This document shows positions 1 through 28,946 of a DNA stretch of 48,163 nucleotides, piece by piece. The notes under the pieces were generated by a model that was not told the DNA's origin, did no database searches, and worked only from the letters and a program-made list of their open reading frames with translations. A program made the position numbers and the translations under genes. The DNA is from Magnetococcales bacterium (GTDB lineage Bacteria > Pseudomonadota > Magnetococcia > Magnetococcales > Magnetaquicoccaceae). The stretch covers positions 1-48,163 of the forward strand of contig JADFWP010000020.1 of assembly GCA_015234115.1 (NCBI GenBank), given 5' to 3'. Numbering within the stretch: the first letter of the stretch is position 1; each line of letters starts with the position of its first letter.

Positions 1-3000
1 GTTCTGGACCGGTGGCACCGAGCGCGGCAGCGAGTGCCGCAGCCAGGGAGGCGATGGTTGCCTCGCCCAGAAAACGCACCACCGGCAGATCGAGCTGCCA
101 ATGCTGTTTCACCCGGTTGCGCAGCTCCACGGCCATCAGCGAGTCGAGGCCCAGTTGGTGCAGGGGCAGCTCCGGGGTGATCCGTTTGGCTTCGAGCCGC
201 AAGACCGCGCTGCCTTGTTCCAGGAAATAGGCTTGCAATAGCGCAGGGCGCTGGTCGGGCGCGGCGGTTTTGAAACGCTCCCGCCAGTCCGCAGCCGCAG
301 CCGTGGGCGCGGGGGGGGAGTCTTTCCGGGCGTAGGCGCTTAACAGTGGCGGCACTCTGCCGGTTGCGGGCAGATGGGCCAGAAAGCGCTCCCAGGCCAC
401 AGGCCAGACTGCGGCCTGGGGGCGATCCATGCCCATCAGGGCCTCCAGGGCGAGCAAACCGGCCTGGGGCGGAATGAAGCCGATGCCGCGTTCGGCATAC
501 CAGCTTTTCTGGCGTTCCTCCAGGGTGGCCGCCATGCCCACCTCGGCCCAGGCTCCCCAATGAATGGTGTTGCCGGGCAATCCCAGGGCGCGCCGGTGCA
601 GGATCAATCCATCCACAAAGCCGTTGGCCGCGGCATAATTGCCCTGTCCTGGGGCGCCCAGCAAGGCCGCCGTGGACGAGAAGGCCACAAAGAAATCCAA
701 AGAGCGGTGCAGGGTCAGTTGATGCAGATTCCAGGCCCCGTCGGCCTTGGCCCCCATCACCCGGTGAAACTGCTCCGGGGTGCAGTGGTGCAGGGCGACA
801 TCGGCCACCACGCCGGCCAGATGGAAAATGCCCCGCAGGGGCTGCCCGCTCCGGTCGATGGCGGCAAAGAGTTCCGCCACCGCCGCAGGCCGTGCCATAT
901 CCGCCGCGTGACAGGTCACTTGCAGGCCCGTGCCGGCTTGCAGTGACTCAAGCTCGGCCAGACAGGCGGCGTCGGGTGCGTTGCGCCCCACGAGCCACAG
1001 ATTTCTGGCCCCGGTTTCAGTCAGCCACCGGACCAGCCGCAGCCCGATCCCGCCCAGACCGCCGGTGATCAGGATGATTCCCTCCCGGAGGCGCCAGGTG
1101 GGGGCCGCCGCCGGGAGAGGCAGCGGGGCCAGCCGGGCCAGATGACGCTTTCCGCGCCGCCAGGCGCTCTGGTCTTCCGGGTCGTTGGCCACAAGTTCGT
1201 GCATCAGGTTGTCCAGATCGTCTGCGCCGGTCGGGTCCAGATCCACCCGGTGACAGAGTGCTTCGCTGCGCTCCAGGGCCATGACCCGGCCCAATCCCCA
1301 CAGGGCCGCGCTGGCAGGCGAGAGCGGGGAATCATCCCCCTCCACCCCGACCCCGCCGCGCGTGACCAGCCACACCGGCGGCGGTTGCTGCCAGACAATC
1401 CCGGCCATGGCCTGATGGAGGGCCACCGCCTGATCCAGTATCCGGGTGCGGGTGGCGGGTTCGGAGTCGGCCCGCTCCAGACTCCACAAGCAGATCACCC
1501 CATGGATCACGCTCCGGGCGGCCAGCGCCTGGAGTCTGGATTGCAATAATTTTTCATCGTCCGCCAACAGCAGTTCGGTCCGATGGCCCGACTGGTGCAG
1601 ACGCTCGGCCAGTGCGGCGCCCAGCCCCTGCCGATCGGCCAGGATCAGCCAGTGTCCCGGCGGTTTGGCGGCGATGTCGGCAGGTTCGGGCCGGGGAGCC
1701 GGGGGCCAGTGCAGGGCATGGAGCCAGGTGGACCACTCCGGATCATGGGGGCGCTGCAACAGTCGTGGATTGAGCGCCTGAATCGCCAGGCCGGTGACCG
1801 TGACCAGAATGGCGCCGGAGTCATCCAGGAGTGTCAGCTCCGCCAGGGCGCGCTGGGCATGGTCCGGGTCCGGGCGCCACTCGGCCCAGGCCCAGAGCTG
1901 ATCCGCAACGGGTTGATGGTGTTCCAGGCGGTCGATGCCCATGGGCAGATAGAGGGTCGGGTGTTCGCTCTCCTCCATGGCGGCCCCGAGCAACTGGAAA
2001 GCCCCATCCAGCCAGACCGGATGGAGCTGCCAGGCGGTTTCCGGGTGGGTGCGGGCCGCTTCCGGGAGTGCGAGGCGGGCCAGGGCGCTGCGTGTGTCGG
2101 GTGCGCGCCACAAGGCTGCGATGGCCAGAAAGGCTGGTCCCTGCTCCAGGCCGAGATGCCGGAAACGTTGATAGAATGGCGTGCGCTCCAGGGCCAGGGG
2201 GTGGGCCAGACGCAACGCGGCCAGATCGCGCGGGGCGGGCGTGGCGCGCGGGGCGGGCCGGAGCGTGCCCGAGGCATGCAGGGTGGCAGCGGTCGGGGTC
2301 AGGGTGTGGATCTGGAAGGTTTGCTCCGTGAGTTCGATCCGCACCCGTTGCGGTTGGTCGGGCGTGAGGATCAGGGGTTGCTGGAACAACAGGTCGTGCA
2401 GGGTGGGCAGCGCCTCCTCCGGCGCGGCGGCGTGGCAGGCGGCCCAGGCCATCTCCACCAGGGCCGCGCCCGGCACCACCACCTGACCCAATACCCGGTG
2501 ATCCTGAAGAAAAGCGGGGTGATCCGGGGTCAGTTCGACCTCGAAGATGGCCTTGCCGGTTGCGCCGGTTGCCACCCGGTTGCCGATCAGGGGGTGTTTC
2601 ACGTGAAACCAGCAGGGTGTGCGCTGAAACGGATAATGCGGCAGGGAAATCCGGCGGCCACGCTCTTTTTCGTGACCGGTGGGCCATTCGATCGGCAGAT
2701 GGCTCTGGGTGCGGGTGCTGCGCGGATCGGTTTGACCGGCCAGGAATTGTTCCAGAACGGTACAGGCTTCGGCAGCATGCGAGGCGGTGACGGTCAGCCG
2801 TTCGGGCCAGAGCGGTCGGCTGGTATGGGCGCTGAAACAGAGATCGCCCCAGGAGATGTCGGGGTGGTCGCGGAGATGATCCCGATAGCGGGTCGCCAGT
2901 TCCCGCAGCGCCGGTTCGCTCTGGGCAGAGAGGATCAGGGCGCGGGGCGGGGCCATGTCGGGTGTATCGGTTCCGGGTATGGCCATTCCGGGTACGGCAG

Positions 3001-4402
3001 GCGGGGCCGGGGGAGGCGCCTGCTCCAGGATGAGATGGACATTGGCGCCGCTCACGCCGAAGGCGCTGACTGCGGCCCGTCTTGGTCCCTGGGTGGTCGG
3101 CCAGGGGGTGAGCCGGGTGGGGGGGCGGATGGGCAGATTGTCCCAATCGAGATGGGGATTGGGGGTGTGGAAATGGAGATGGGGCGGGATTGCGCCCGCG
3201 CGCAGGGCGAGTACGGTTTTGATCACCCCGGCCACCCCGGAGGCGGCCTCCAGATGGCCGATGTTGGTCTTGACCGAGCCGACCAGCAGGGGCGTTTCGC
3301 GGGTTCTGCCGGTGCCATAGACGGCGGCCAGAGCCTGGAGTTCGATGGGGTCGCCGAGCGGAGTGCCGGTGCCATGGGCTTCGACATACTGCACCTGATC
3401 GGGTTGCAGGCGGGCCGCTTCCAGGGCCTGGCGCAAAAGCTGTCGTTGGGCGGTGCCATTGGGCACGGTCAGGCCGGAACTGGCTCCATCCTGGTTGGCG
3501 GCGGAACCGAGGATGACGGCGTGGATCGTGTCGCCATCCCGCAAGGCGTCGTCGAGGCGGCGCAGGATCAACACGCCGCACCCTTCGCCCCGTCCATAGC
3601 CGTCGGCGGCGGCGTCGAAGGTTTTGCAGCGTCCGTCGGCGGCGAGCATGCGGGATTGACAGGTGGTGATCATGCCGCCGGGAGCGAGGATCAGGTTGAC
3701 CCCTCCTGCCACGGCCAGTTGGCATTCCCGGTTGCGCAGTCCGGCGCAGGCGAGATGAATGGCGGTCAGGGAGGAGGAGCAGGCCGTATCCACGGCCATG
3801 CAGGGGCCATGCAGTCCCAGGGTGAAGGCGAGGCGACCGGCAGCCACGTTGGCGGCATTGCCGGTGAGATAATAGCTGTCCACCTGATCCAGCGGAGTGG
3901 ATTGGGTATAGAGCCGGTCGTAGTCGTTGCCGGTGATGCCGATATAGACCCCGGTCGAACTGCCCTGGAGACGATCGGTGAGTTTGCCCGCCTCTTCCAT
4001 GGCCTCCCAGGTCACTTCCAGCAGCAGCCGTTGCTGGGGATCCATGCTGGCGGCCTCGCGGGGGGAGATGCGGAAGAAGCCGGGATCGAATCCGGCCACA
4101 TCTTGCAGGAATCCGCCGGAACGGGTGTACATTTTGCCCGGTGTGCCGGGTTCCGGGTGATAATAGCGGGTGCTGTGCCACCGTTCCGGGGGAATCGGGG
4201 TGATGGCATCCACGCCATCCTTGAGCATTTGCCAGAACCGTTCCGGGGTTGCGGCGTCACCGGGAAAGCGGCAGCCCATGCCGATGATGGCAATGGGATC
4301 GGCGCGCTGGCTTTCCAGTTGCGCGATGCGGGTGCGGGCGCTGCGCAAGGCGGCGAGGATTTTTTGCGCGTCGAAACCGGGAGGAAGGGCAGTTTGGTTC
4401 AT
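1..4402 (-). CDS. Type I polyketide synthase, AT-less module KS-DH-KR-ACP (3' end outside window)
   Basis: The frame is open from ATG 4402 to the left edge (about 1467 residues, no stop), so the C-terminus is missing. After a short N-terminal helix (LRSARTRIAQLE, docking-like) comes a ketosynthase with DTACSSS (Cys ~208), EAHGTGTPLGDP and NIGHLEAASG, so all three catalytic residues are present. The usual KS-AT linker (~490-560) runs almost directly into the post-AT motif LPHYPFQR (~590), with no GHSxG acyltransferase between. A dehydratase follows with HRVLGQVVVP (His ~635) and LDGAFQ (Asp ~799). The ketoreductase has TGGLGGIG (~1115), FSSTAA and GNYAAAN (Tyr ~1256). The ACP has GLDSLMAVEL (Ser ~1421). 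It would make a beta-hydroxy or alpha,beta-unsaturated unit, with malonyl supplied in trans. Its start overlaps the PPTase stop by 4 bp (translational coupling). Anything after the ACP is unknown. Confidence 0.93.
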   Translation of the reverse strand, partial: MNQTALPPGFDAQKILAALRSARTRIAQLESQRADPIAIIGMGCRFPGDAATPERFWQMLKDGVDAITPIPPERWHSTRYYHPEPGTPGKMYTRSGGFLQDVAGFDPGFFRISPREAASMDPQQRLLLEVTWEAMEEAGKLTDRLQGSSTGVYIGITGNDYDRLYTQSTPLDQVDSYYLTGNAANVAAGRLAFTLGLHGPCMAVDTACSSSLTAIHLACAGLRNRECQLAVAGGVNLILAPGGMITTCQSRMLAADGRCKTFDAAADGYGRGEGCGVLILRRLDDALRDGDTIHAVILGSAANQDGASSGLTVPNGTAQRQLLRQALEAARLQPDQVQYVEAHGTGTPLGDPIELQALAAVYGTGRTRETPLLVGSVKTNIGHLEAASGVAGVIKTVLALRAGAIPPHLHFHTPNPHLDWDNLPIRPPTRLTPWPTTQGPRRAAVSAFGVSGANVHLILEQAPPPAPPAVPGMAIPGTDTPDMAPPRALILSAQSEPALRELATRYRDHLRDHPDISWGDLCFSAHTSRPLWPERLTVTASHAAEACTVLEQFLAGQTDPRSTRTQSHLPIEWPTGHEKERGRRISLPHYPFQRTPCWFHVKHPLIGNRVATGATGKAIFEVELTPDHPAFLQDHRVLGQVVVPGAALVEMAWAACHAAAPEEALPTLHDLLFQQPLILTPDQPQRVRIELTEQTFQIHTLTPTAATLHASGTLRPAPRATPAPRDLAALRLAHPLALERTPFYQRFRHLGLEQGPAFLAIAALWRAPDTRSALARLALPEAARTHPETAWQLHPVWLDGAFQLLGAAMEESEHPTLYLPMGIDRLEHHQPVADQLWAWAEWRPDPDHAQRALAELTLLDDSGAILVTVTGLAIQALNPRLLQRPHDPEWSTWLHALHWPPAPRPEPADIAAKPPGHWLILADRQGLGAALAERLHQSGHRTELLLADDEKLLQSRLQALAARSVIHGVICLWSLERADSEPATRTRILDQAVALHQAMAGIVWQQPPPVWLVTRGGVGVEGDDSPLSPASAALWGLGRVMALERSEALCHRVDLDPTGADDLDNLMHELVANDPEDQSAWRRGKRHLARLAPLPLPAAAPTWRLREGIILITGGLGGIGLRLVRWLTETGARNLWLVGRNAPDAACLAELESLQAGTGLQVTCHAADMARPAAVAELFAAIDRSGQPLRGIFHLAGVVADVALHHCTPEQFHRVMGAKADGAWNLHQLTLHRSLDFFVAFSSTAALLGAPGQGNYAAANGFVDGLILHRRALGLPGNTIHWGAWAEVGMAATLEERQKSWYAERGIGFIPPQAGLLALEALMGMDRPQAAVWPVAWERFLAHLPATGRVPPLLSAYARKDSPPAPTAAAADWRERFKTAAPDQRPALLQAYFLEQGSAVLRLEAKRITPELPLHQLGLDSLMAVELRNRVKQHWQLDLPVVRFLGEATIASLAAALAAALGATGPE

Positions 4403-5049
4403 GCGGATAACCGGTGCAAAGGGATGAACTCCAGGCGTGGCGTTTCCGGGGTGGGCACGCAGGCGAGATGGGCAGAGTAACCGGGGTGGAGGTCGAGGGA
4501 ATGGATGGCCCAGAAGCGTCCGTTCAGCCAGGCCCCGTGATGATCGGGGCGGATCTCTTTGGGATGGATGGACATGCCTTGGCCTTCTGCTTTGAGGACA
4601 CTTTCGCGTTGCGTCCAGAAGTTGAAGAAAACAATCCGTTGCGCGACGGGATCGGCACAGGAGAGCCAGGGTGGGTCAGGCACGAACCCGTGAAAGTCAT
4701 CCAGGGAGATGGCGCGGTGTTGTTCCACGTCCAGTCCGATGTCGCCCGCGTCGGTCAGCGCGCAGGCGACCACGCCTCCGGAATGGGTGATGTTAAATTG
4801 AACCGGGCCATCGAGAAAGGGTTTGCCGAATCGGGTCTGGCGGATGGCGTGCAGGGCGGGTGGTTCGCCTCTCTGGGCGTGCAGACCATGGGCCAGCAGT
4901 CGCCGTCCCAGCAGCCGGGCCAGCCGGTCTTCCCAGCGCACGAAGCGTTGGGTCTGCGCCACAAAGGCGGGCGGAAGCGGGGCCTGGAGCTGCTCCCATT
5001 GCTGTCCGGTCGGGGGGGTCGCGAAGTGGGTATGATAGATGCACAGCAT
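4399..5049 (-). CDS. 4'-phosphopantetheinyl transferase, Sfp type
   Basis: Transfers 4'-phosphopantetheine from CoA to the conserved Ser of ACP and PCP domains, and so activates the neighbouring PKS and NRPS. Family motifs are visible in order: FNITHSGG, IGLDVEQH (Mg-binding Asp and Glu) and FWTQRESVLKAEGQGM, as in the Sfp/EntD superfamily. I chose ATG 5049 because the protein then begins MLCIYHTHF, as such enzymes usually do. The frame is open to ATG 5115 (238 residues), but that longer start would overlap the start codon of the divergent thioesterase gene and has no ribosome binding site. The stop overlaps the start of the PKS gene by 4 bp, so the two form an operon. Function is secure; the start is less so. 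Confidence 0.92.
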   Translation of the reverse strand: MLCIYHTHFATPPTGQQWEQLQAPLPPAFVAQTQRFVRWEDRLARLLGRRLLAHGLHAQRGEPPALHAIRQTRFGKPFLDGPVQFNITHSGGVVACALTDAGDIGLDVEQHRAISLDDFHGFVPDPPWLSCADPVAQRIVFFNFWTQRESVLKAEGQGMSIHPKEIRPDHHGAWLNGRFWAIHSLDLHPGYSAHLACVPTPETPRLEFIPLHRLSA

Positions 5050-5149
5050 GTTCGGAACCGTTCGGGATTTTTCGTTGACGCAACTCCAGGTTGAATTGTA
5101 ACCTTTATATTTCATGAATGGAAGTGATCAGGTGGATTGGTGTGTGCTC

Positions 5150-5845
5150 ATGGATCGCCCGTTACAGCTTTTTTGTTTTCCGTTTGCTGGCGGGAACGTC
5201 TACTCTTTTCGTTCCTGGCCGCAGCATTTTTCCGACCGGATTCGGGTCGAACCCCTGGAATTGCCGGGTCGGGGGCGACGGGGGCGCGAACCTTTGCTGG
5301 TGAGCCTGGAAGCGATGATCGACGACATGACCGGTCAGTTGCTGTCCAGGGTGCAAGGCCCTTATGCCCTGTTTGGTCACAGTCTCGGGGCCTGTCTGGC
5401 GTTTGGCGTGGCGCATCGGTGTGTTCGCGCCGGAGGGGTGTTGCCGAGGCATCTGTTTCTTTCCGGGCGCAAGGCCCCTGGGGCGATCCGGAATGAGGTG
5501 TGGAAACATCGGCTCGATCGTCCGCAATTTCTGCGTGTGTTGGAAGAATATGGGGGATTTTCTCCTCAATTGCTCGCGGATGCCGGATTCGTCGAGTATA
5601 TCGAGCCGATTCTCCGGGCCGATTTTCAGGCCATCGAGACTCATGTTGCGGTTCCACTGCCCCCTCTGCCGCTTCCCCTGACGGTTTTCATGGGGCAGCG
5701 CGAAGAGTTTGAGGAGGCGGAGGCACAGTTGTGGCGTGCCGAGACCAGTGCCTCCATGACGTTGATTCAGTATCCCGGAGGCCATTTTTTCTTGAACGAT
5801 CATCTTCCTTCGGTCGCTGCCCGGATCGAGGAGGATCTGATATAA
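5150..5845 (+). CDS. Type II thioesterase (alpha/beta hydrolase, GrsT/SrfAD-like)
   Basis: Stand-alone editing thioesterase that frees stalled or mis-primed acyl groups from carrier domains; a role in final release cannot be excluded because no TE domain is seen in the megasynthases. The N-terminus LQLFCFPFAGGNVYSFRSW is typical of the family. The nucleophile lies in GHSLGA (Ser codon 5381-5383) and the catalytic His in GGHFFLND near the C-terminus. The position where the family usually has the catalytic Asp reads FMGQREEFEEAE, so Glu may replace it. I prefer ATG 5150 (MDRPLQLFC); an in-frame ATG at 5114 would add 12 residues and share bases with the longest possible PPTase start. It is transcribed away from the PPTase-PKS pair and toward the NRPS genes. 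Confidence 0.9.
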   Translation: MDRPLQLFCFPFAGGNVYSFRSWPQHFSDRIRVEPLELPGRGRRGREPLLVSLEAMIDDMTGQLLSRVQGPYALFGHSLGACLAFGVAHRCVRAGGVLPRHLFLSGRKAPGAIRNEVWKHRLDRPQFLRVLEEYGGFSPQLLADAGFVEYIEPILRADFQAIETHVAVPLPPLPLPLTVFMGQREEFEEAEAQLWRAETSASMTLIQYPGGHFFLNDHLPSVAARIEEDLI

Positions 5846-5862
5846 TTTTTTTGAGATGGAAT

Positions 5863-5892
5863 TTGACAAGGTTGGCAGCCGTGTGATATAAC
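5863..5892 (+). promoter_or_regulatory. Strong sigma70 promoter with extended -10
   Basis: TTGACA at 5863-5868 and TATAAC at 5887-5892 are separated by 18 bp, and TG lies one base before the -10 (extended -10, 5884-5885). It lies just after the thioesterase stop and drives the DUF697 gene, with a leader of about 50 nt. It is one of the closest matches to consensus in the window. Confidence 0.75.
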
Positions 5893-5950
5893 AGAATATG
5901 AATTTTTGTGTGTTTTGATCTACCAACTTACATGACGGAGGATCCCAATC

Positions 5951-6502
5951 GTGTCCAATACTGCCCAAGCCGATGCCACCACCATTGACCAGGAAGTCCC
6001 CCACATCGACGACTCCCCCCTGAGCGAAGCCGAACTCCGGGGTCGCCGCGGACAGGCCAACAACCTGATCAAGAATTTCATGATCGGTTCGTTGTCCGTG
6101 GGTATCGTGCCGGTTCCTCTGGTCGATGCCGCCGCTCTCTCCAGCCTGCACCTCTGGATGTTGCAGAAACTGGCCAATCTCTATGGCGTGCCCTTCAAGA
6201 AAGACATCGGCAAATCCCTGCTGGGTTCGCTGGTGGGCAGTGGCGCCGGGATCACGGCCGCCATGGGTCTGCGCCAGTTGCTGCGCGGTCTGCCCGTGGC
6301 CGGTCAACTGCTGACCGGTGTCAGCGTCTCCATCATGAGCGCGGCCAGCACCTATGCCGTGGGCAAGGTCTTTGTCCAGCATTTCGAGTCCGGTGGCACC
6401 TTCCTCACCATGGACCCGGAAAAAGTGCGGGATTATTTCCAGGCTGAATTCGCTGCGGGCAAGGCCAAAGCCTCTTCCATGGCCAAGGATTTTGTTGGCT
6501 GA
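5951..6502 (+). CDS. DUF697/YcjF-like small membrane protein
   Basis: 183 residues starting at GTG 5951, fixed by a clear ribosome binding site GGAGGA at 5937-5942. After an acidic, polar N-terminus (~40 residues) there are hydrophobic helical stretches around 43-75 (IGSLSVGIVPVPLVDAAAL) and 88-140 (glycine/alanine-rich, LGSLVGSGAGITAAMGLRQLL), then an amphipathic C-terminus. This matches the DUF697 pattern found in YcjF-like proteins and in many small uncharacterised proteins. The biochemical role is unknown. It has its own strong promoter and a terminator-like hairpin after it, so it is probably an independent unit that happens to sit inside the biosynthetic cluster. A link to product handling at the membrane is speculation. 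Confidence 0.72.
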   Translation: MSNTAQADATTIDQEVPHIDDSPLSEAELRGRRGQANNLIKNFMIGSLSVGIVPVPLVDAAALSSLHLWMLQKLANLYGVPFKKDIGKSLLGSLVGSGAGITAAMGLRQLLRGLPVAGQLLTGVSVSIMSAASTYAVGKVFVQHFESGGTFLTMDPEKVRDYFQAEFAAGKAKASSMAKDFVG

Positions 6503-6527
6503 GTTCTGCCGGAAGACGGGATCCTCC

Positions 6528-6571
6528 AGAAAGGCCAATCCTTCCCACAGACTGGAAGGATTGGCCTTTCT
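6528..6571 (+). terminator. Perfect 18-bp hairpin, terminator-like
   Basis: Arms 6528-6545 and 6554-6571 (AGAAAGGCCAATCCTTCC and its complement) are perfect, with an 8-nt loop. It stands 25 bp after the DUF697 stop. Only a short T-run follows (CTTTCT), so termination may be only partial. Confidence 0.6.
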
Positions 6572-6634
6572 GATGGTTGAGGAGAGCGATCCCGCTTCTC
6601 CCTTATTGACTTTTCGAACCATCCCGAGAATGAT

Positions 6635-8401
6635 ATGAAAAGAAATTTACTCACCCATGCGCGCCATCATGCGTTGATCCTCGCGACGGCCACCCTCTTT
6701 GCCGGCACCCTGGCCAACGCGGCCCCTGAAGGTGGACTGCTCAAGGAATTGAGCACCTCCATGAAACAGTTCGAGAACCACGACAAGCAGGAAGGCCCTG
6801 CGATCAAGGGAATCGATGTGGTCCAGACCGCCCTGGCCCAGGACAACATCATGCGGATGATCGAATGGAAAAAGGTCGAGATGGTCGAAGGGGATCATCA
6901 GTCTGCCCAGGGCAAATTCGACTGGACGCCATCGGCCATTCTCGCCGTGGGTGACACCCGCACCAATGTGCGCAACGATATTTCCGCTTTGATGGGCGGT
7001 GCGCCCGATCCGCGCAAGGTCGCCACCAATTCGGCCAAATACACCAGCGTGACTCTGGGCATGGAGAAGAACTTTGCGGCAGGTCTCAAGACCGAACTCC
7101 AGGTTTCCCCCATGCAGAGCAAGGCCAACTTCGACAAGATCGGTGTGCCGGGGGTGACGCGGGACATGTTGTGCGCCCAGGGGGTGGCTCCGTGTCAGGG
7201 GAGCAACACCTCTTCGGTCACCTTCAAGATCAATGTGCCGTTGCTCAAGGGCAGCGCCTGGGACGACGCCTACGCCCCCACGGTGGAAGAGCAGGTCGCC
7301 AAAAAGAATTATGAAAAGGGCGTCTCGGAATACCGCCAGAAGGTGGCCGAGCAGGTCTATGCGGTCATGAGTGCCTATTGGGATTACAAAGCGGCCTTGA
7401 AAGATCGCATGATCAACAAAATCAGCCAGGATCTGGTGGGACGCTGGGTCCGGTCCGCCAAGGTCGCCCCGGCCGAGAGCCGCAAAGGCGGCAGACAGGC
7501 GACCCCCTCGGTCAACCAGAAATCCCTGGAAGCCATGCTGGCCGATGAAACCCTGGGTGTGACCAGCGCCGAACAGGAGGTGGTGGCCAAGAAAGAGGCG
7601 TTGATCGCGGCCATGGGGATCTCCGAGGATCTGATTCCCCAGATCGGCTATCCGGCCGAAGAGTTCGCGATGGTGCCGGCGCAAGTCAATCTGGACAGTT
7701 CCACCATGAAGGAACATCTCTTCAAACTGGCCATGGAGAACCGTGCCGATCTGGTGGCGCTGCGGCTGGAAGAGGAGTCCAACAACCTGAAATTCGGTCA
7801 GGCGAAAAATGCCCTGAAACCTCAGCTCGACCTGGAGACCGGGGTCAGCTACAACGGCGGCGGCATCAGCCAGAACACCGACGGGAAAACGCCCGAGACC
7901 TATTCCGGCACCGGGATTGCCAATCTGGTGGATCCCATGGATGATTTCAGCGCCGGTCCCTCCTGGAACGCCATGCTGACCTTCAAGATGCCTCTCGGCA
8001 ACAACACCGCCGAAGGCACGATGAAAAAGGCCAGTGCCATGATGACCCTGGCCAACATGAAACAGACCAGCGAATACCGCAAGATCATCTCGGCCTTGCG
8101 CACCACCCATGCCTCCATCAAGCAGCGTCAGGCCGATCTGGCCACGGCCGAAGGGGCGGTGAAGTCCTATTGGGAGGCGCTGGATCAATCCCTGGCGGAT
8201 CGGGGCTTGTCCAATCCGGCCAAGCTGACCACCATTCTCGATCTGGAAGAGAAGCTGAAAAAGTCCATGATCGCCTTCAATCATGCCCGTCGCGATCTGG
8301 CCAAGGCGGTGGTGGATGCCCGTTTCCATACCGGCACCCTGCTGGCGGGCAAAGGGGCGGATGTGGATGTGACCCCGGAGCAGCTCACCACGCTGCCTTG
8401 A
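6635..8401 (+). CDS. TolC-family outer-membrane efflux protein
   Basis: 588 residues. A signal peptide (KR-rich start, hydrophobic core LILATATLFAGTLANA, cleavage near residue 29) targets it to the periplasm. The mature protein shows the two-repeat pattern of OEP/TolC proteins: long coiled-coil helices with heptads (EEQVAKKNYEKGVSEYRQKVAEQ and later ENRADLVALRLEEESNNLKFGQAKNALKPQLDLE) alternating with short beta segments (TFKINVPLL, MLTFKMPLG). Such proteins form the outer-membrane channel of tripartite exporters. There is no inner-membrane pump or adaptor beside it. It lies just before the NRPS, which suggests export of the product, perhaps together with the channel-less RND pair at 36.8-41.0 kb. 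That link is inference. Confidence 0.85.
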   Translation: MKRNLLTHARHHALILATATLFAGTLANAAPEGGLLKELSTSMKQFENHDKQEGPAIKGIDVVQTALAQDNIMRMIEWKKVEMVEGDHQSAQGKFDWTPSAILAVGDTRTNVRNDISALMGGAPDPRKVATNSAKYTSVTLGMEKNFAAGLKTELQVSPMQSKANFDKIGVPGVTRDMLCAQGVAPCQGSNTSSVTFKINVPLLKGSAWDDAYAPTVEEQVAKKNYEKGVSEYRQKVAEQVYAVMSAYWDYKAALKDRMINKISQDLVGRWVRSAKVAPAESRKGGRQATPSVNQKSLEAMLADETLGVTSAEQEVVAKKEALIAAMGISEDLIPQIGYPAEEFAMVPAQVNLDSSTMKEHLFKLAMENRADLVALRLEEESNNLKFGQAKNALKPQLDLETGVSYNGGGISQNTDGKTPETYSGTGIANLVDPMDDFSAGPSWNAMLTFKMPLGNNTAEGTMKKASAMMTLANMKQTSEYRKIISALRTTHASIKQRQADLATAEGAVKSYWEALDQSLADRGLSNPAKLTTILDLEEKLKKSMIAFNHARRDLAKAVVDARFHTGTLLAGKGADVDVTPEQLTTLP

Positions 8402-8424
8402 GCCTTGCGGACGGTATCGTCTGA

Positions 8425-8458
8425 CATGCAAATGGGGGTGAGGGGGCTCCCCCCCATC
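8425..8458. repeat. Palindromic repeat, family 1, copy 1
   Basis: CATGCAAAT followed by GGGGGTGAGGGGG, a short turn and CTCCCCCCC, then CATC. It forms a G/C hairpin. It is directly followed by a second copy, and a third related copy lies inside the NRPS gene at 15.0 kb. Confidence 0.7.
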
Positions 8459-8506
8459 ATGTAAATGGGGGTGAGAGGGTTTCTCTCCCCCCATCATGCA
8501 AGTTTG
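8459..8506. repeat. Palindromic repeat, family 1, copy 2 (tandem)
   Basis: ATGTAAATGGGGGTGAGAGGG, a TTT turn, then CTCTCCCCCC and CATCATGCAAGTTTG. The unit boundary ATG(C/T)AA(A/G)T is the same as in copy 1. The arms of the two copies differ at compensating positions (GAGGG with CTC, GAGAGGG with CTCTCC), so base pairing is kept. Confidence 0.7.
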
Positions 8507-8536: not shown

Positions 8537-8568
8537 AAAGGTCTTGTCTGATCGAGAATTTCACTTCC

Positions 8569-17500: not shown

Positions 17501-20500
17501 GAATCGGGGTGGGTCCAGGCTATTGGCGCCACCCGGAGCGCACCAGGGAATCCTTTGTGGCCAATCCCTACGCCACCCATGCCCACGATGCGGTGCTGTA
17601 TCGCACCGGCGATCTGGGGCGCTGGCGGGCGGATGGGGTGTTGGAGTTCATGGGGCGGCTCGATCATCAGATCAAGTTGCGCGGTTTTCGCATCGAGTTG
17701 GGGGAGATCGAGGCGGTGTTGGCCCGTCATCCTTTGGTGCGGGAGGCGGCGGCTTTGCTCTGGGAAGAGGCGGATGGCGAAAAACGGCTGGTTGCCTATG
17801 CGGTCGGGGATTATCAAAAGGCTGCCGAAGAGCCGTTGCGCGGCGAGCAGGTGGCCCTGTGGCAGGCGTTGCACGAAAACAGCTATGCCGATTCATCGGG
17901 CCGGATCGATGGGGATCCCACCTTCAATACCATTGGCTGGGACAGCAACTATACCGGTCTGCCGCTCTCCACGGTCGAGATGCGCGAATATGTGGGTCTG
18001 ACCTGCGCGCGGATTCGGGAGTTGGGTCCGGGGCGGGTGCTGGAGATCGGGTGTGGCACGGGTCTGCTGATGTTTGCGCTCCTGCCCGATTGCCGCCACT
18101 ATCGCGGGTTTGACCTCTCCCAGACCGCGATCGATCAGTTGCGCGCGCTGCAACACGATCCTGCCTTGCTGGCCAGGGTGCCGGGACTGGCGGATGCCCG
18201 ACTGGAACGGCGCAATGCCGATGATTTCAGCGGGATCGAGGCCGGGTCGTTCGATACCGTGATGCTCTGTTCCGTGGTGCAGTATTTTCCCGGCATCGAT
18301 TATCTGGTGCGGGTGCTGGAGGGGGTGGAGCGGGTATTGGCGCCGGGCGGGGCGGTCTTTGTCGGGGATGTGCGTCGTCTGTCGCTGCTGGAGCCGTTTC
18401 ATGCCTCGGTGGAGTGGTTCAAATCCGGGGAGGAGACCACGGCGGCCAAGGTGCGGCAGCGGCTGATGCGGGAACAGGAGTTGGCCGTGGATCCGGCCTT
18501 TTTCTGGGCCTTGCGGAGCCGGTTGCCCCGGTTGCGCCATGTGGAGTTGCTGCCCAAGCGGGGCACGGTGCACAACGAGATGACCCGGTTCCGGTATGAT
18601 GTGGTGTTGCGTTTTGACGGCCCGGATGTCGAGGCGGCGTCGCTCTCCTGGCAGGTGTGGCACCCCGAACACCACAGACCCGAACAGATGCGCCGTCTGT
18701 TGCAAGACCCGGCCTGGGAGCCAATGGCGATTCGCGGCATTGCCAACAGCCGTTGCCAGGAGGCGCGCGCCTTGTCTGCCCGGTTGATGCGGCAGGACGC
18801 GCCCGAGTCGGAAACGGGCGTGGATCCGGAGGAGTACCAGGCGCTGGCGGCGGAGTTCGGTTGTTCGGTTGCCATGGCGCTCGATCCGGCCTCGCAGGAG
18901 AGCCGCTATCATCTGGTGGTGCGTCGGCCCGATCAGCCGCGCTGGTTTTTTCCGGCGCCCGAATTGGCCCCCCGTCCGTGGCGCTCTTTCGGGAACAATC
19001 CCTTGTTCGAAAAATGGGCCGGACGCATCACCGGGCAGATCCGGGAGCATCTGGCCGAAAGCCTGCCGGGCTACATGGTTCCCTCCCAGGTGATGGTGTT
19101 GGAAGCGTTGCCGCTCACTCCGAACGGCAAGATCGATCGTCTGGCGCTGCCCCGTCCGGAACGGTTGGCCGTGGGCGCCCAGCTCTGGGAGGCGCCCCAG
19201 ACTCCGGTCGAAACCGTTCTGGCCGAGATCTGGAGCGCGGTCCTGGGCTGCGAACGGGTGGGTCGTCGGGATCATTTCTTTGAACTGGGTGGCCACAGCC
19301 TGAAAGCCACGCAGGTGATCAGCCGCATCCATCAGCGTCTTGGGGTGGAGTTGCCCTTGCGGGATCTGTTCAATTTTCCGGTGCTGGCCGATCTGGCGGT
19401 CGAGGTGGCAGGGCGCGGGCGCACGGTCCAGGCCGCGATTCCGGCCCAACCGGATGCGGAAACCCATCCGGTCTCCCATGCCCAGCGGCGGTTGTGGGTT
19501 CTGTCGCGGATTCCTGCCGCTTCGGTGGCCTACAACATGCCCGGCGCGCTGCTTTTGACCGGTGCGCTGCAGCCGGAGGCGTTCGCCGAGGCTTTGCGGC
19601 AACTGGTCGCCCGTCACGACTCCTTGCGCACCACCTTCGTGAGCCTGGATGGGGTGTTGCGCCAGAAAATCCATGCGGACCGGATTCCTGATCTGGAGTG
19701 GGTGGATCTGAGCGGGTTCGAGGCGCCGGAAGAGGCGGCCCGCGCCTGGATCCGGGAGGCGGCGCTCGTGCCGTTCGATCTGGAACAGGGGCCTTTGGTG
19801 CGGGTGGCGGTATTGCGCCTGGCGGCCTCCAGGGCCGTGCTGTTCGTCAATCTGCACCACATCATCTCCGATGGCTGGAGCGAAACCGTGCTGGTGCGCG
19901 AGTTTGTGCGGCTCTATGCCGGGTTGAGCCGGGGGCGCGCGATGGAGCTGCCCCGTCTGCGGATCCAGTACCGCGACTATGCCCACTGGCAGAACCGTTT
20001 TCTGGAAGGGGAAGCCGGCCAACGATCCGCCCGCTACTGGCAGGCCCAACTGGCCGCTCCCCTGCCCACCCTCAATCTGCCCACGGATCGTCCCCGGCCG
20101 GCGATCAAGAGCTATCGCGGGGCAGAGTGGAGCTGTGTGCTCGATGCCGGGTTGGTCGAGGGACTCAATGCGTTGGCCCGTCTCCATCGGGCGAGTCTGT
20201 TCATGCTCCTGACCGCTCTGGTGCAGGTGCAACTGGCCCGTTACAGCGGTCAGGAAGAGATTCTGGTCGGCTGTCCGGTGGCCGGGCGGGATCATCCGGA
20301 TCTGGAAGGGCAGATCGGTTTTTATGTCAATACGCTGGTCTTGCGGGCGCGGGTACGGAGCGAGGAGTCGTTTGCAACTCTGCTGGATCAGGTGCGTGAC
20401 ACCGTTTCCCAGGCGCTGGAGCATCAATCCTATCCCTTTGACCGGCTGGTGGATGAATTGCGTCTGGAACGGGATGTCAGTCGCAATCCGTTGTTTGACG

Positions 20501-22737: not shown

Positions 22738-22754
22738 GGAGTGATGGAGAGAGC

Positions 22755-25700
22755 ATGAGCGATTCGTCAGCGCGCATTGCGGTGATCGGCATGGCCGGGC
22801 GTTTTCCGGGCGCGGCGGATCTGCGCCAGTTCTGGGAAAATCTGGCGGGAGAGGTGGAGTCGATCACCTTTTTTACCCCCGAGGCCCTGATTGCGGCGGG
22901 TGTGGATCCGGCAGTGGCGCAACATCCCGATTATGTCCCGGCCAACGGGGTTCTGGAGGGGGTGGAGTGGCTGGATGCCGCCTTTTTCGGTCTCACCCCG
23001 CGCGAGGCCGAAGCCACCGATCCTCAGCACCGCCTGATGCTGGAGTGCGCCTGGGAGGCGCTGGAAAATGCCGGATACGTCCCGAACCGGCTCACCATTC
23101 CGGTCGGCGTCTTTGCCGGATGCGGCCCAAGCTCGTATTTGTTGCATAATCTGCTGCCCAATGTCGGATTTCTCGCCAGTGTCGATGATTTCCAGTTGCT
23201 GGTTGGCAACAACAAGGATTTCGCTCCGACCCGCATCTCCTACAAACTGAATCTCAAGGGGCCAAGTCTCAACATCAGCACCGCCTGTTCCACCTCGCTG
23301 GTGGCGGTGCAGACCGCCTGTCAGGCTCTGCTGGATTATCAATGCGATCTGGCCCTGGCCGGAGGGGCGGGGATCCATCTGCCCCAGGAGCAGGGGTATC
23401 TTTATCACAAAAACGGCATCGGCTCGCCCGATGGCCACTGCCGCCCTTTTGATGCCGCTGCCCAGGGCACGGTCAACGGCAACGGGGTGGGGATGGTGGT
23501 GCTGAAACGGTTGGAAGAGGCGCTGGACGATGGGGATTTCATTTATGGCGTGATCGCGGGCGCGGCCATCAACAACGATGGCGCGGACAAGATCGGCTTC
23601 ACCGCGCCGAGCGTTTCCGGCCAGGCCGAAGTGATCGCCACCGCGCTGGCGTTGGCCGGCTTCGAGCCAGAGACCCTCTCCTGTGTCGAAACCCACGGCA
23701 CGGCCACCGAGTTGGGCGACCCCATCGAGATCGAAGCCTTGAGCCGCGCCTTTGGTCCGGGTCTGACTTCCGGGCAGTGCGCCATCGGTTCGGTCAAAAG
23801 CAACATCGGCCATCTGGACGAAGCCGCCGGGGTGGCAGGATTGATCAAAACCCTGCTCGCCCTGACCCACAAGACCCTGCCCGCCTCGCTCCACTACCAC
23901 GCGCCCAACCCGAAGATCCCTTTTGCCAAGACTCCGTTCCAGGTCAATGCCCGCACCCGTCCCTGGCCAGCGGGTTCAACCCCGCGCCGGGCGGCGGTCA
24001 GTTCGTTCGGCATTGGCGGCACCAATGCCTCGGTGATGGTGGAAGAGGCGCCGTTGCGGGAGGGGTCGGCTCCGTCTCGCGACACACAGGTCTTGATGCT
24101 CTCTGCCCGCACGCCCCAGGCGCTGGAGCAGGCCGTCGCGCGGCTGGCCCAATGGTTGGAGGAGAATCCAGGCGCGAATCTCGCCGATGTCGCCTATACC
24201 TTGCAGGTGGGGCGGGCGCAGTTCCGGCAGCGTCGGGCCGTGCCGTGTCGCAGCCGGGCAGAGGCCCTGGTCGCCTTGCGTGCGGGGCAGGGGCTGGTTG
24301 GCCAGTGGGAAGGGTCCGAATCCCGGCCTGTGGTATGGCTTTTTCCTGGTCAGGGGACGCAACGGATCCGGATGGGCGCGACTCTTTACGCCTCCGAATC
24401 GCTCTTTCGGGCGTTGGTGGACCAGTGCGCCCAGGGGCTGGTGCCCCATTTGGGGTTTGATCTGCGCAGCGTGTTGTTTCCCGCCGCCGGTCAGGAGGAG
24501 CAGGCCAGGGCGCGTTTGATCCGCACCGACCTCGCCCAGCCTGCCTTGTTCGTGATCGAATATGCCCTGGCCAAACTTTGGATGGCCTGGGGAATCACGC
24601 CGCAGGCCATGCTTGGCCACAGTCTGGGCGAATATGTCGCAGCCTGTCTGGCCGGGGTTTTCACCCTGGAGGAGGCCTTGAAGATCACCGCGCTGCGCGG
24701 GCGGTTGATGCAATCCATGCCTGCCGGGGCCATGGTGGCGGTGGTGTTGCCGGAAGAGCCATTCCGGGCCTTGCTGACCCGTCACGATCTGGCCCTGGCG
24801 GCCCATAACGGGCCGCAGCATTGGGTGGCTGCCGGGACGTTCGCGGCGATTGCCGCGCTGGAAGCGGAATTGACCGAACGGGAGATTCCCTGGCAACGTC
24901 TGGCCACCTCCCATGCCTTTCACTCCGCGCTGATGGCGCCGATCCTGGCCCCGTTCGAGGCGGCGTTGCGGCACTGTCGTCTGCAACCGCCCAGCCTGCC
25001 CTTTTTGTCCAATTTGACCGGCCACTGGATCACGCCGCAGCAGGCGACCGATCCGGGTTACTGGTCTGCCCATCTGCGCCAGGCCGTGCGTTTTGCCGAC
25101 GGGGTGGCGGAATTGTCCCGGACGCTGCCCAAGGCGCTTTATTGGGAGTTGGGGCCGGGCCGGGTGCTGACCAGTCTGGTGAGAAAAAATCTTGGCAACG
25201 CCGTCGAACTTCTGACCGGCGAGGAGGGGGACGAATGCGCGACCCTGGGACGCTTGTTCGTCGCGGGGGTGGGAATCGACTGGAAAGGGTTTTATGCGGG
25301 CGAGCGCCGGATGCGTTGTCCCCTGCCGGGCTATCCTTTCGAGCGGCAACGCTATTGGGTGGAGTCGCGGGTTGCTCCCCCCGCTCCCCAGGTTGCCTCC
25401 GGGGGGGTGGATGGCTGGCTCTATCAGCCGGTCTGGAAAGCTCTCCCGCTGCGGCCTGCGCCGGTCACGGCTGCGCGCTGGCTGGTGTTTCTGGATGATT
25501 GGGGGTTGGGTGCGGCGCTGGTTTCCGCCCTGCGTGCGCAGGGGGAGTCGGTGGTCACGGTGCGGGTCGGAGTCGGCTTTGAACGGTTGGGTGCGGAGGC
25601 GTTTGCGCTGGTCCCGGAGCGCGGAGCGGATTATCAGCGATTGATCCAGGCCGCCGGCCCTGTGCAACGGGTGGCTCATCTGTGGCTGGTTTCGGGCCAT

Positions 25701-28700
25701 GGAGACTCCTGCGCTCTGGCGCACGGATTTGAGAGTCTGCTGCATCTGGCCCGTGCGCTGGAACCGATCCAGGACGAGGTGCGCATTGGCGTGGTCACCA
25801 CCCGACTGGATCGATATCCGGAAAAAGCCCTGGTGCAAGGACCGGTCAAGGGGATCGGGCTGGAGTATCCGGGTCGGAGCTGTTGTGCCGTGGAATTGGC
25901 ATGGAGCGGCGATGTTCCCGTGGCAGGCTGGATGGTGGACGGGATCTTGTCAGAGATCCGTGCGGGGGGTGCATCCGGCGGGTTGGTGGCGTTGCACGAG
26001 GATCGACGGTCGATTCTGGCGCACGAACCGATCATGTCGCCGTCATGGCCTGTGGCGACCGGCTGGCGCGCAGGCGGGGTTTATCTGATCACCGGGGGCA
26101 CCGGGGGCATGGGGTTGGCCATGGCCGAACATCTGGTGCGGCGCCATCGGGCCAAAGTGATTTTGATCAGCCGTTCCGGAGCATCGGCAGCATTGACCGG
26201 GCGGATCGCCGCCTGGGGCGGAGAGGTGTTGGTTCTGGCGGCGGATGTGGCGGATCGGGAGGCCATGACCAGGGCGCTTGATCAGGCCAGAGAGCGGTTT
26301 GGCGCGATCCACGGGGTGATTCATGCGGCCGGAATCGCGGATGGCGGGCTGATCTGGAGCCGCACCCCGGCCCAGGATCAGGCGGTGCTGGCTCCCAAGT
26401 TCCAGGGGTTGCGGGTGCTGGAGCAGGTATTGGATTTTGCCGCTCTGGATTTCCTGCTGCTTTGTTCGGCCTTGAGCGGCGTGACCGGGGCCTTCGGGCA
26501 GGTGGCCTATGGGGCAGCGAACGCCTTTCTGGATCACTATGCCGCCTCCATGCGGGCGCGTCATGGTTTGCGCGTGACGGCTCTGGCCTGGGATGGCTGG
26601 CGCGAAACCGGCATGGCCAAAGAGAGTGCCGCCTCCATGGGGCGTCATCGGCTGGATCATCCGTTGTTTGCGTCCATGGCCCACGATGGCGCCCGCATCG
26701 TCTATGCTGCGATCCTGCATGCCAACGACTGGTTGCTGGACGAACACCGCATCGCCGGCATGCGGGTCTTGCCGGGGACCGCCTATCTGGATCGGGCGTT
26801 GGCCGCGATGCAGTTGAAAACCGGCGGCAGTGCGTTTGAAATGGCCGATTTTTTCTTTGTGGCGCCATGGGTGCTGGAAGCGGACGAAACCCGGACCCTG
26901 GAAGTGGTGCTGGAAGAGCAGGCCGAAGGGGTGCATTGCACCATCCGCAGTGCCTCGGCGCCGGGTGTCTGGATCGAACACGCCCAGGGCCGGATGCGGG
27001 TGGTGGAGGCGGAGCGGAAACGGGGGGAGATCGGGCAACTGCAAGCGACGCTGGAGGCGTCACGGGTCGGGCTGGAGCGGTTCGCCCCGCGTCTCGGCGC
27101 CCTGGGAGTCCACTGGCATTGCCTGCGACAGGTCGGCCTGCGTGACGGGGAAGGTGACGGGGAAGGGGTGGCGTTGCTGGAGCTTGCCCCGGCGTATGAG
27201 GAGGAGTTGATCGCTCATCCTCTGCATCCGGCCCTGCTGGATGTGGCGACCGGCTTGCTGGTGCTGGCGGGCCATGGGGCGGAAGAGGGGATGTTGCCGT
27301 TCGGGTATGCCCGGTTGACCTGGTTCCAGCCGCTGCCCCGGCGCGTGATCAGCCAGGTGCGGGTGGTGGCGCGGAGCGGCGATCAGGTCACGTTTGATGT
27401 CAACCTGTATGACGAAACCGGTTTGTTGCTGGTCGAGGTGCGGGGGTATTCCCTGCGTGCGGTGCGCACTCCCCGCAGTGCCGAGAATTTCCGGGTTCGG
27501 ATCGTGACTCCGGGTGATCTGGAAAGCCTGACCCTGGTTCCTGTCGAGCGTCCGGCACCGGGTGCCGGGCAGGTGGAGCTGGCGGTGGCCTGTGTGGGGC
27601 TGAATTTCAAGGAGGTGCTGTTCGCCCTGGGATTGTTGCCCGAGGCGCCGGATCCGGCGGTGGTGGCGTTTGGGCTGGAGTGTTCTGGCGTGGTGAGCCG
27701 GGTCGGGGCCGGGGTCGAGGGGCTGGCGGTCGGGGATCGGGTGATGGCCTTTGCGTCGGAGGCGCTGGGCCGTCATGTGGTGGTGGATGCGCAAGCCGTG
27801 GTGGCGGTTCCGGCGGGTCTGTCGCTGGAGCAGGCGGCGACCGTTCCGGCGGCTTTTGTCACTGCCTATTATGCCCTGGTGGAACTGGCCCGTCTGCAAC
27901 CCGGCGAGAAAATTCTGATTCACTCGGCAACCGGCGGGGTGGGGCTGGCGGCGGTTCACATTGCCCGCTGGATCGGGGCCGAAATTTTTGCCACGGCGGG
28001 CAATCCGGAGAAACGGGCCTATCTCTCCGGATTGGGCATTCAAACGGTGCTCGATTCCCGTTCGCTGGATTTTGTCGCTGCGGTGCGGAACGCCACCCAG
28101 GGCCGGGGGGTGGATGTGGTGCTGAATGCCCTGGCAGGAGAGTATTTGTCGAAAAGTCTCGGGTTGTTGGCCCCGTTTGGCCGTTTTCTGGAGTTGGGGG
28201 TGCGGGACTTTTACGCCAACCGTGGCCTGGATCTGGCGCCTTTTGTGCACAATCTGTCGTTTTTTGCCGTGGGCGTTGGCGTGGGCATGCCGGGCTTCGC
28301 CAGACTCTTTGCCAAGGTCGCGGAACACCTCGCGCACCAGGATTTCGCGCCTCTGCCCGTGCAGCTTTTCCCCCTGGCCCGGATGGCGGATGGCTTCCGG
28401 CTCATGTCCCAGGCTCGACACATCGGCAAGGTGGTGATCGCGGTGGGGGGCAGCGATGCTTCAGCGCCGCAGAGCATCGGCCTGACCACAGCCCAGGGGT
28501 TGGAAATTCTCGACCGGGTGGTGAATCTTGCCGATCCTCCGGCCCGGATTGTGGTTTCTCTCCAGGAGTTGGGGCAGCGGATCGCCACGGCGGCCCATGT
28601 CGATGCGGTCATTCCCGTCACGCCTGGCGCGACCCATGCCCGGCCAGATCTGGGAATCGCCTTTGTGCCAGTGCAGGGGGCAACGCAGCAGGCTGTGGCC

Positions 28701-28946
28701 GAGATTTGGGAATTGCTGTTCGGGATCAGCGGGTTGGGGGCGCGGGATGACTTTTTTGCCCTTGGCGGGGATTCGCTGCTGGCGGCCCAGGTCAACTCCC
28801 GGCTGCGCAAGCGGTTCGGAGTGGAGCTTTCCATGGGGGCGCTGTTCGAACACCCCACCATCGCCACTTTGGCCGACCATATCGATCGTCTCCGTCCCCT
28901 CCCGCATCCGGAGGTGGACGAAGAGGAGGAGTTTGGGGAGCTGTAA
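22755..28946 (+). CDS. Type I polyketide synthase, KS-AT-KR-DH-ER-ACP
   Basis: 2063 residues; ATG 22755 has a purine-rich GGAGAGAGC upstream and lies 17 bp after the NRPS stop. KS: TACSTS (Cys ~178), VETHGTATELGDP, SNIGHLDEAAG. AT: GQGTQ, GHSLGEY (Ser ~623), HAFHS (~720), which indicates malonyl-CoA; the post-AT motif LPGYPFERQRYW follows. KR: ITGGTGGMG (~1112), CSALSG, AYGAANAF. DH: EHRIAGMRVLPGTAYLD (His ~1331) and HPALLD (Asp ~1496). ER: HSATGGVGLAAVHIAR (~1725). ACP: FFALGGDSLLAAQ (Ser ~2007), PCP-like, and then an acidic tail. All reductive residues look intact, so it should add a fully reduced two-carbon unit to the peptidyl chain from the NRPS. The order KR-DH-ER differs from the usual DH-ER-KR. 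No release domain is present. Confidence 0.95.
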   Translation: MSDSSARIAVIGMAGRFPGAADLRQFWENLAGEVESITFFTPEALIAAGVDPAVAQHPDYVPANGVLEGVEWLDAAFFGLTPREAEATDPQHRLMLECAWEALENAGYVPNRLTIPVGVFAGCGPSSYLLHNLLPNVGFLASVDDFQLLVGNNKDFAPTRISYKLNLKGPSLNISTACSTSLVAVQTACQALLDYQCDLALAGGAGIHLPQEQGYLYHKNGIGSPDGHCRPFDAAAQGTVNGNGVGMVVLKRLEEALDDGDFIYGVIAGAAINNDGADKIGFTAPSVSGQAEVIATALALAGFEPETLSCVETHGTATELGDPIEIEALSRAFGPGLTSGQCAIGSVKSNIGHLDEAAGVAGLIKTLLALTHKTLPASLHYHAPNPKIPFAKTPFQVNARTRPWPAGSTPRRAAVSSFGIGGTNASVMVEEAPLREGSAPSRDTQVLMLSARTPQALEQAVARLAQWLEENPGANLADVAYTLQVGRAQFRQRRAVPCRSRAEALVALRAGQGLVGQWEGSESRPVVWLFPGQGTQRIRMGATLYASESLFRALVDQCAQGLVPHLGFDLRSVLFPAAGQEEQARARLIRTDLAQPALFVIEYALAKLWMAWGITPQAMLGHSLGEYVAACLAGVFTLEEALKITALRGRLMQSMPAGAMVAVVLPEEPFRALLTRHDLALAAHNGPQHWVAAGTFAAIAALEAELTEREIPWQRLATSHAFHSALMAPILAPFEAALRHCRLQPPSLPFLSNLTGHWITPQQATDPGYWSAHLRQAVRFADGVAELSRTLPKALYWELGPGRVLTSLVRKNLGNAVELLTGEEGDECATLGRLFVAGVGIDWKGFYAGERRMRCPLPGYPFERQRYWVESRVAPPAPQVASGGVDGWLYQPVWKALPLRPAPVTAARWLVFLDDWGLGAALVSALRAQGESVVTVRVGVGFERLGAEAFALVPERGADYQRLIQAAGPVQRVAHLWLVSGHGDSCALAHGFESLLHLARALEPIQDEVRIGVVTTRLDRYPEKALVQGPVKGIGLEYPGRSCCAVELAWSGDVPVAGWMVDGILSEIRAGGASGGLVALHEDRRSILAHEPIMSPSWPVATGWRAGGVYLITGGTGGMGLAMAEHLVRRHRAKVILISRSGASAALTGRIAAWGGEVLVLAADVADREAMTRALDQARERFGAIHGVIHAAGIADGGLIWSRTPAQDQAVLAPKFQGLRVLEQVLDFAALDFLLLCSALSGVTGAFGQVAYGAANAFLDHYAASMRARHGLRVTALAWDGWRETGMAKESAASMGRHRLDHPLFASMAHDGARIVYAAILHANDWLLDEHRIAGMRVLPGTAYLDRALAAMQLKTGGSAFEMADFFFVAPWVLEADETRTLEVVLEEQAEGVHCTIRSASAPGVWIEHAQGRMRVVEAERKRGEIGQLQATLEASRVGLERFAPRLGALGVHWHCLRQVGLRDGEGDGEGVALLELAPAYEEELIAHPLHPALLDVATGLLVLAGHGAEEGMLPFGYARLTWFQPLPRRVISQVRVVARSGDQVTFDVNLYDETGLLLVEVRGYSLRAVRTPRSAENFRVRIVTPGDLESLTLVPVERPAPGAGQVELAVACVGLNFKEVLFALGLLPEAPDPAVVAFGLECSGVVSRVGAGVEGLAVGDRVMAFASEALGRHVVVDAQAVVAVPAGLSLEQAATVPAAFVTAYYALVELARLQPGEKILIHSATGGVGLAAVHIARWIGAEIFATAGNPEKRAYLSGLGIQTVLDSRSLDFVAAVRNATQGRGVDVVLNALAGEYLSKSLGLLAPFGRFLELGVRDFYANRGLDLAPFVHNLSFFAVGVGVGMPGFARLFAKVAEHLAHQDFAPLPVQLFPLARMADGFRLMSQARHIGKVVIAVGGSDASAPQSIGLTTAQGLEILDRVVNLADPPARIVVSLQELGQRIATAAHVDAVIPVTPGATHARPDLGIAFVPVQGATQQAVAEIWELLFGISGLGARDDFFALGGDSLLAAQVNSRLRKRFGVELSMGALFEHPTIATLADHIDRLRPLPHPEVDEEEEFGEL

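Follow-up and report, generated by a model that had tools for sequence, protein, structure and literature searches.

Introduction

In polyketide synthases (PKS), the reductive domains usually follow the order dehydratase (DH), enoylreductase (ER) and ketoreductase (KR). In the mycosubtilin pathway, a lipopeptide hybrid, the ketosynthase (KS) module of MycA lacks an acyltransferase (AT) and is served in trans by FenF, a FabD-like enzyme encoded in the cluster. Two described modules come close to the locus studied here. ClbB of colibactin has the order KS-AT-KR-DH-ER-T (T, thiolation) and is reported to extend Ala with malonate to a 4-aminopentanoic acid residue (PMC5490422). LusU of lusichelin is reported to combine a malonyl-type AT with KR-DH-ER and to produce a saturated two-carbon link (PMC12210259). 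Here we analyse a window of 48,163 bp, which is the entire contig JADFWP010000020.1 (C74) of the Magnetococcales genome GCA_015234115.1 (G000), a metagenome-assembled genome of 3.31 Mb in 161 contigs with 77% completeness. The window harbors a cluster in which the AT-less PKS P0001, the tetramodular nonribosomal peptide synthetase (NRPS) P0002 and the fully reducing PKS P0003 are found together with accessory genes. The cluster is a fresh example of the well-known hybrid NRPS-PKS type, and the AT-less module stands out.

Overall architecture and proposed pathway

The cluster genes fill bases 1-28,946, and the left side is cut off by the contig end at base 1. The domains are abbreviated C (condensation), A (adenylation), MT (methyltransferase), ACP (acyl carrier protein) and TE (thioesterase).

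2-4402, minus strand: AT-less PKS gene P0001, incomplete at the contig end; Pfam KS-DH-KR-ACP, no AT match
4399-5115, minus strand: 4'-phosphopantetheinyl transferase (PPTase) gene P0007; Pfam AASDHPPT_N, with NCBIfam HetI and AcpT matches below cut-off
5114-5845, plus strand: type II thioesterase gene P0006; Pfam Thioesterase, 2.6e-46
6635-8401, plus strand: TolC-like outer membrane protein gene P0005; Pfam OEP, 5.1e-17
8569-22737, plus strand: NRPS gene P0002, 4,722 residues; C-A-T, C-A-T, C-A(MT)-T, C-A-T
22755-28946, plus strand: reducing PKS gene P0003, 2,063 residues; KS-AT-KR-DH-ER-ACP, no TE

A sequence-only reading of the window had listed this same set within 29 kb, and every gene was recovered at or close to where it had been placed. 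The Pfam domains, scanned in 18 window proteins, and the motifs also support its module count and its fully reduced two-carbon extension. It had further supposed that the cluster continues to the left; the left part of the pathway is indeed missing, but no sequence lies there, base 1 being the contig end. C, A and T domains occur with KS, AT and ACP domains in collinear genes, as in hybrid NRPS-PKS systems, the exceptions being one variant motif in the first C domain (C1) and one AT-less module.

We consider it likely that the locus encodes the right-hand part of a hybrid line building acyl-Ala-Val-N-methyl-Dab-Thr (Dab, diaminobutyrate), to which P0003 contributes a fully reduced and P0001 an unsaturated two-carbon unit, P0001 being charged in trans. 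In this pathway, P0002 would add Ala, Val, N-methyl-Dab and Thr to an acyl starter. P0003 would add malonate to the Thr carbonyl, and its KR, DH and ER would reduce the product completely, leaving an internal 4-amino-5-hydroxyhexanoyl unit by analogy with the 4-aminopentanoyl unit that ClbB makes from Ala. P0001 (KS-DH-KR-ACP) would add an alpha,beta-unsaturated two-carbon unit, acting on the starter ahead of C1 or else downstream of P0003. Its ACP would have to receive malonate in trans, the candidate donors being the FabD of fatty acid synthesis, the AT of P0003 and an AT encoded beyond the contig end. Carrier domains would be activated by the PPTase and stalled ones cleared by the type II thioesterase, and the TolC-like protein, probably a dedicated export channel, would export the product. 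The domains, their order, the codes, the AT gap between retained linkers and the gene linkage are read directly from the sequence; the product, the charging in trans, the export and the order of action are inferences.

The AT-less module P0001

P0001 starts with an N-terminal coil, and a linker lies between its KS and DH domains.

4300-3167, minus strand: KS
2596-1766, minus strand: DH
1081-542, minus strand: KR
208-32, minus strand: ACP

The ACP and KR motifs are present, whereas neither the motif check nor Pfam found an AT motif. Among solved structures, CurL of the curacin pathway is the best single-KS match to the P0001 KS, scoring 603 bits in one stretch. The 708 bits obtained in total for 7zma are mainly the sum of two KS domains, which give 330 and 361 bits, and the PksL entries reach at most about 402 bits. 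We take the PksL entries and 7zma to be trans-AT systems; a review describes a trans-AT bimodule and cites what is presumably the 7zma paper. A classical trans-AT PKS was ruled out for P0001, since its KS is nearer to CurL and to AT-bearing modules, and as judged by sequence it is closest to cis-AT KSs. The sequence-only reading had named an AT-less and a cis-AT module; the first is indeed devoid of an AT, but the nearest relatives of its KS, such as CurL, belong to cis-AT modules.

The position of the missing domain is visible in the alignments. P0001 aligns with CurL up to residue 557 (562 in CurL) and again at residues 571-599 (908-936), leaving out the AT, although the second piece by itself scores only 1.0 bit. 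The same join appears when P0001 is aligned with the AT-bearing proteins of two relatives, G010 and G036, and the post-AT linker motif is retained. Moreover, the N-terminal coil of P0001 aligns with the CurL N-terminus, so that the two proteins share both KS and coil, while CurL retains its AT. Given that the linkers are kept and the AT is missing in all these alignments, the AT of P0001 seems to have been excised between its linkers.

Collapse of a PKS repeat during assembly or binning could in principle produce such a gap, and the window is a single contig from a metagenome. The reading frame is kept, however, and the join falls at domain borders with linker on both sides. In addition, a separate, related KS-DH module in G020 also lacks its AT with different borders, most of its linker being gone as well. 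An artefact is therefore highly unlikely. The G020 protein (L086 2201-8014, G020:C146) contains AMP-binding, ACP, KS, DH, ACP and aminotransferase class I/II domains, and G038 encodes a more distant KS-ACP-C protein that likewise has no AT.

A KS tree was built from 30 KS domains longer than 330 residues, taken from the window and 22 loci, with duplicate or more distant KS loci left out and no named trans-AT KS included. The P0001 KS is placed in a moderately supported group of 11 rows (89/87; inner fork, 85/84). Eight of the other ten rows have an AT, G020 has none, and G008 is cut before the AT region. Of the starred groups that comprise half the rows or fewer, none contains the P0001 KS.

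The ATs found in G000 are two only, that of P0003 and FabD. No discrete cluster-encoded AT was detected in the window, nor elsewhere in G000 apart from FabD, in a genome that is 77% complete and a cluster whose left side is missing. P0001 differs in this respect from MycA with its FenF, the only discrete AT found for it being the FabD of the genome. The single AT found in G020 is FabD (over cut-off), and that of G038 is discrete and shares its contig with a FabF-like KS match.

Linkage of the accessory genes

P0001 is transcribed divergently from the NRPS gene and shows a single module, as would be expected if the minus-strand PKS formed a separate pathway beside the NRPS cluster, an option that the sequence-only reading had raised. 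The gene arrangement makes this improbable. The PPTase gene overlaps the start of P0001 by 4 bp, and the thioesterase adjoins the PPTase in all four loci holding either gene (L046, L048, L051 and L090) among the 15 loci of relatives compared. Because of this conserved linkage and the overlap, the minus-strand PPTase and P0001 most likely share a pathway with the NRPS. The guanine-cytosine content agrees with this: it is 0.64-0.68 in P0001, P0002 and P0003 against 0.54-0.67 in 11 right-flank genes. This is weak evidence, because the small genes in between are also lower (PPTase 0.61, thioesterase 0.58, TolC-like 0.59).

Four clusters of the same genus (G010, G006, G004 and G009) have the type II thioesterase and the PPTase in common with the window, and three of them also have the TolC-like gene. 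The thioesterase and PPTase genes are located on the PKS-NRPS contig in G010, G006 and G009 and on a separate contig in G004. The KSs of these clusters are 58-60% identical to that of P0001, but their PKS retains the AT. In G010, the PKS has the order KS-AT-ACP-aminotransferase-C-A-T with a class III aminotransferase, and the accessory set has an ABC transporter gene as its neighbour. The accessory set is retained across the same-genus clusters while the biosynthetic core varies.

TolC-like homologues (E <1e-20) occur in 7 of the 48 genomes of the order, including G000. Five of the six others (G010, G006, G004, G008 and G036) lie together with PKS/NRPS domains, or with the thioesterase-PPTase pair, on one contig; for the sixth, G042, 15,000 of 19,276 bases were read and showed none of these. 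A PADLOC scan of the TolC-like protein and two right-hand neighbours gave no match. The gap between the TolC-like and NRPS genes contains a 33-bp imperfect repeat (2.2 copies, 8425-8501). An open reading frame at 5162-6622 on the minus strand, which overlaps the thioesterase gene and the gap beyond it, has no Pfam match and was taken as spurious.

The fully reducing PKS P0003

The P0003 gene follows the NRPS gene after 17 bp, and its domains are arranged as follows, with a KR-DH-ER order that the sequence-only reading had not mentioned.

22773-23897, plus strand: KS
24333-25199, plus strand: AT
26076-26606, plus strand: KR
26658-27473, plus strand: DH
27561-28439, plus strand: ER
28689-28883, plus strand: ACP

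The tested KS, AT, DH, ER and ACP motifs and the KR nucleotide site are all present, and the AT carries the malonyl-type motif HAFH. In the KS tree, the P0003 KS belongs to an 11-row group with support of 100/100. A KR is seen in ten of these modules, always straight after the AT; the DH, present in five of them, invariably follows the KR, and in three of these five, P0003 included, the ER comes after the DH. The remaining group, with 19 rows, shows the reverse: in all four modules where both were seen, the DH comes before the KR. The KR/DH order is thus split between the KS groups and marks lineage in this sample.

In ClbB, too, this uncommon order of domains follows immediately on an NRPS module, and the reduction is likewise complete. 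ClbB differs in extending Ala and in being fused to its own NRPS module, while P0003 is a separate protein with Thr as predicted substrate; the likeness is drawn from the published description of ClbB. By this analogy, Thr and malonate on P0003 should give 4-amino-5-hydroxyhexanoate. LusU, compared in the same descriptive way, shares the KR-DH-ER set but works in a thiazoline metallophore pathway. At the sequence level, two KS-AT-KR-DH-ER-T modules resembling P0003 are found on a plasmid of Chroococcidiopsis sp. CCNUC1 (WP_250017948.1 and the next module), the order being given by Pfam for one and by BLAST for both. Their identities to P0003 are 55 and 63% for KS, 51% for AT, and 50 and 53% for ER, yet the locus is a different cluster with other genes. 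One such KS-AT-KR-DH-ER module lies at L023 21569-29236, a stretch that the PLSDB gene table covers only partly.

Among the matches listed for P0003 in 99 other genomes, the longest has 43% identity over residues 5-1570 (G097) and the highest identity is 53% over residues 4-653 (G036). Searches of plasmids, genome contigs and the 99 genomes found no orthologous cluster. A near-identity search of bases 1-24,000 against plasmids returned nine records with short matches only, and comparison of the NRPS with genome contigs, a scan reaching close relatives only, returned five loci with 34-36% identity (Chitinophaga, Hymenobacter and Roseivirga).

The sequence-only reading had placed the AT-less PKS before the NRPS; P0001 could instead act after P0003. 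The chain would then pass from the NRPS through P0003 and P0001 to lost left-side modules with a TE, giving acyl-Ala-Val-N-methyl-Dab-Thr followed by a saturated and an unsaturated two-carbon unit. This order is a real possibility, though we do not favour it. It is consistent with P0003 having no TE, with the next gene to the right being unrelated and on the opposite strand, and with the CurL-like N-terminal coil, by which P0001 probably receives its chain from another protein. Moreover, the KSs with which that of P0001 groups are not preceded by an NRPS module in their own protein. On the other hand, the tail of P0003 after the ACP has about 20 residues and, by eye, no recognisable class 2 docking helix. 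The KSs of the P0001 group also precede an NRPS module within one protein in G010, G006, G004, G009 and G042. Alternatively, release from P0003 as a delta-lactone via the Thr hydroxyl is possible.

The NRPS and its predicted residues

Pfam identifies four Condensation, four AMP-binding and four PP-binding stretches in P0002, with one methyltransferase inside the third adenylation domain (A3).

10126-11568, plus strand: adenylation domain 1, code DLFNNALVYK, predicted Ala
13246-14703, plus strand: adenylation domain 2, code DALWLGGTFK, predicted Val
16486-19008, plus strand: adenylation domain 3 with inserted methyltransferase, code DIWEMTADDK, predicted N-methyl-Dab
20836-22368, plus strand: adenylation domain 4 (A4), code DFWNIGMVHK, predicted Thr

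The codes were extracted on an alignment to a GrsA segment, and we take them to specify Ala, Val, Dab (PvdL-like, DIWELTADDK) and Thr. The residues named in the sequence-only reading (Ala, Val, Dab-like and Thr) agree with these extracted codes under the same presumed assignments.

The tested C, A and T motifs are present except in C1, which has HHIVCDN in place of the usual HHxxxDG. Each of the four Condensation matches precedes an A domain, so none is left for an epimerisation domain, and by eye all four C domains are LCL-like. The product may be a lipopeptide, as the sequence-only reading supposed, but the 18 proteins scanned include no fatty-acyl ligase, and C1 resembles C2 (43.7% identity) and C3 (45.0%) in a comparison made without named starter C domains. 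A4 contains a perfect 12-bp tandem repeat (21828-21885, plus strand, 4.8 copies), which encodes an in-frame (CDSV)n about 12 residues before the GVPGE motif and looks like recent slippage.

Several points weigh against the proposed pathway. The residue codes are predictions, the Dab call being the weakest. The A3 code is absent from the literature searched, and for N-methyl-Dab and 4-amino-5-hydroxyhexanoate only organic synthesis and the mureidomycins turned up; spelling variants and subscription papers were outside that search. The mureidomycins are reported to contain N-methyl-2,3-diaminobutyric acid, the other isomer. The one Dab aminotransferase model tried, TIGR00709, stays below cut-off in the 77%-complete G000 (134 vs 401.6 bits; EctB was not tried). 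In addition, C1 has its variant motif, the repeat insertion could impair A4, and no terminal TE is found on P0003 or elsewhere in the window. A loading module is likewise missing from the window, the left side being off the contig. Finally, with the left part of the pathway missing, G000 shows no Condensation domain beyond those of the window, and the only additional KS lies in a 432-residue FabF-like frame.

The AT loss, the missing TE, the C1 variant and the A4 repeat expansion might together indicate a broken, decaying cluster. Yet the reading frames of the three large genes (4.4, 14.2 and 6.2 kb) are uninterrupted, that of the first up to the contig end, and the other tested motifs are intact, which leaves decay distinctly improbable. 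We retain the hybrid pathway proposed above.

Host genome and flanking genes

G000 encodes two MamK proteins, with 514 and 496 bits against a curated cut-off of 400.

C106 26294-27295: MamK gene, curated cut-off exceeded
C161 30291-31292: MamK gene, curated cut-off exceeded

This cut-off is passed by 46 of 48 genomes of the same order and by none of 14 control genomes. The host is presumably an uncultured magnetotactic bacterium of the order Magnetococcales. More than one MamK is present in several relatives too.

The right border of the cluster is formed by the following gene.

28976-29935: GH46 chitosanase-like gene with a peptidoglycan-binding domain

It is followed by CHAD, PPK2, RND pump, PpiD-like and HscA genes and two tRNAs. 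With these genes to its right, the cluster ends near 28,946. Membership of the RND pump (36.8-41.1 kb) is unsupported, as no full-length homologue occurs in the 15 loci of relatives compared, each a short stretch of sequence. A hybrid histidine kinase gene contains an 18-bp tandem repeat (3.5 copies, 34318-34380).

Discussion

The cultured magnetotactic cocci are considered poor candidates for new metabolites in a 2015 review, in which the 4.71-Mb genome of Magnetococcus marinus MC-1 is reported to have no PKS (PMC4306944). Sesbanimide R, whose producer is an alphaproteobacterium, was reported in 2021 to be the first natural product of any magnetotactic bacterium (PMC8262917). In our data, P0001 is matched at E <=1e-80 in 16 of the 48 genomes of the order, G000 included, and the uncultured members therefore look richer. 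The single-contig genome G027 matches P0001 no better than 5e-33, in an approximately 500-residue frame.

We tentatively raise the idea, which we regard as doubtful at present, that AT loss has occurred repeatedly among PKS modules of cis-AT descent in the Magnetococcales, and that these modules are charged by the housekeeping FabD rather than by a dedicated trans-AT. It is prompted by P0001, by the KS-DH module of G020 and by the more distant KS-ACP-C protein of G038. If true, FabD-charged AT-less modules would bridge cis-AT and trans-AT systems as a natural intermediate. The AT-less P0001 offers a direct, testable case of a cis-AT module surviving the loss of its AT.

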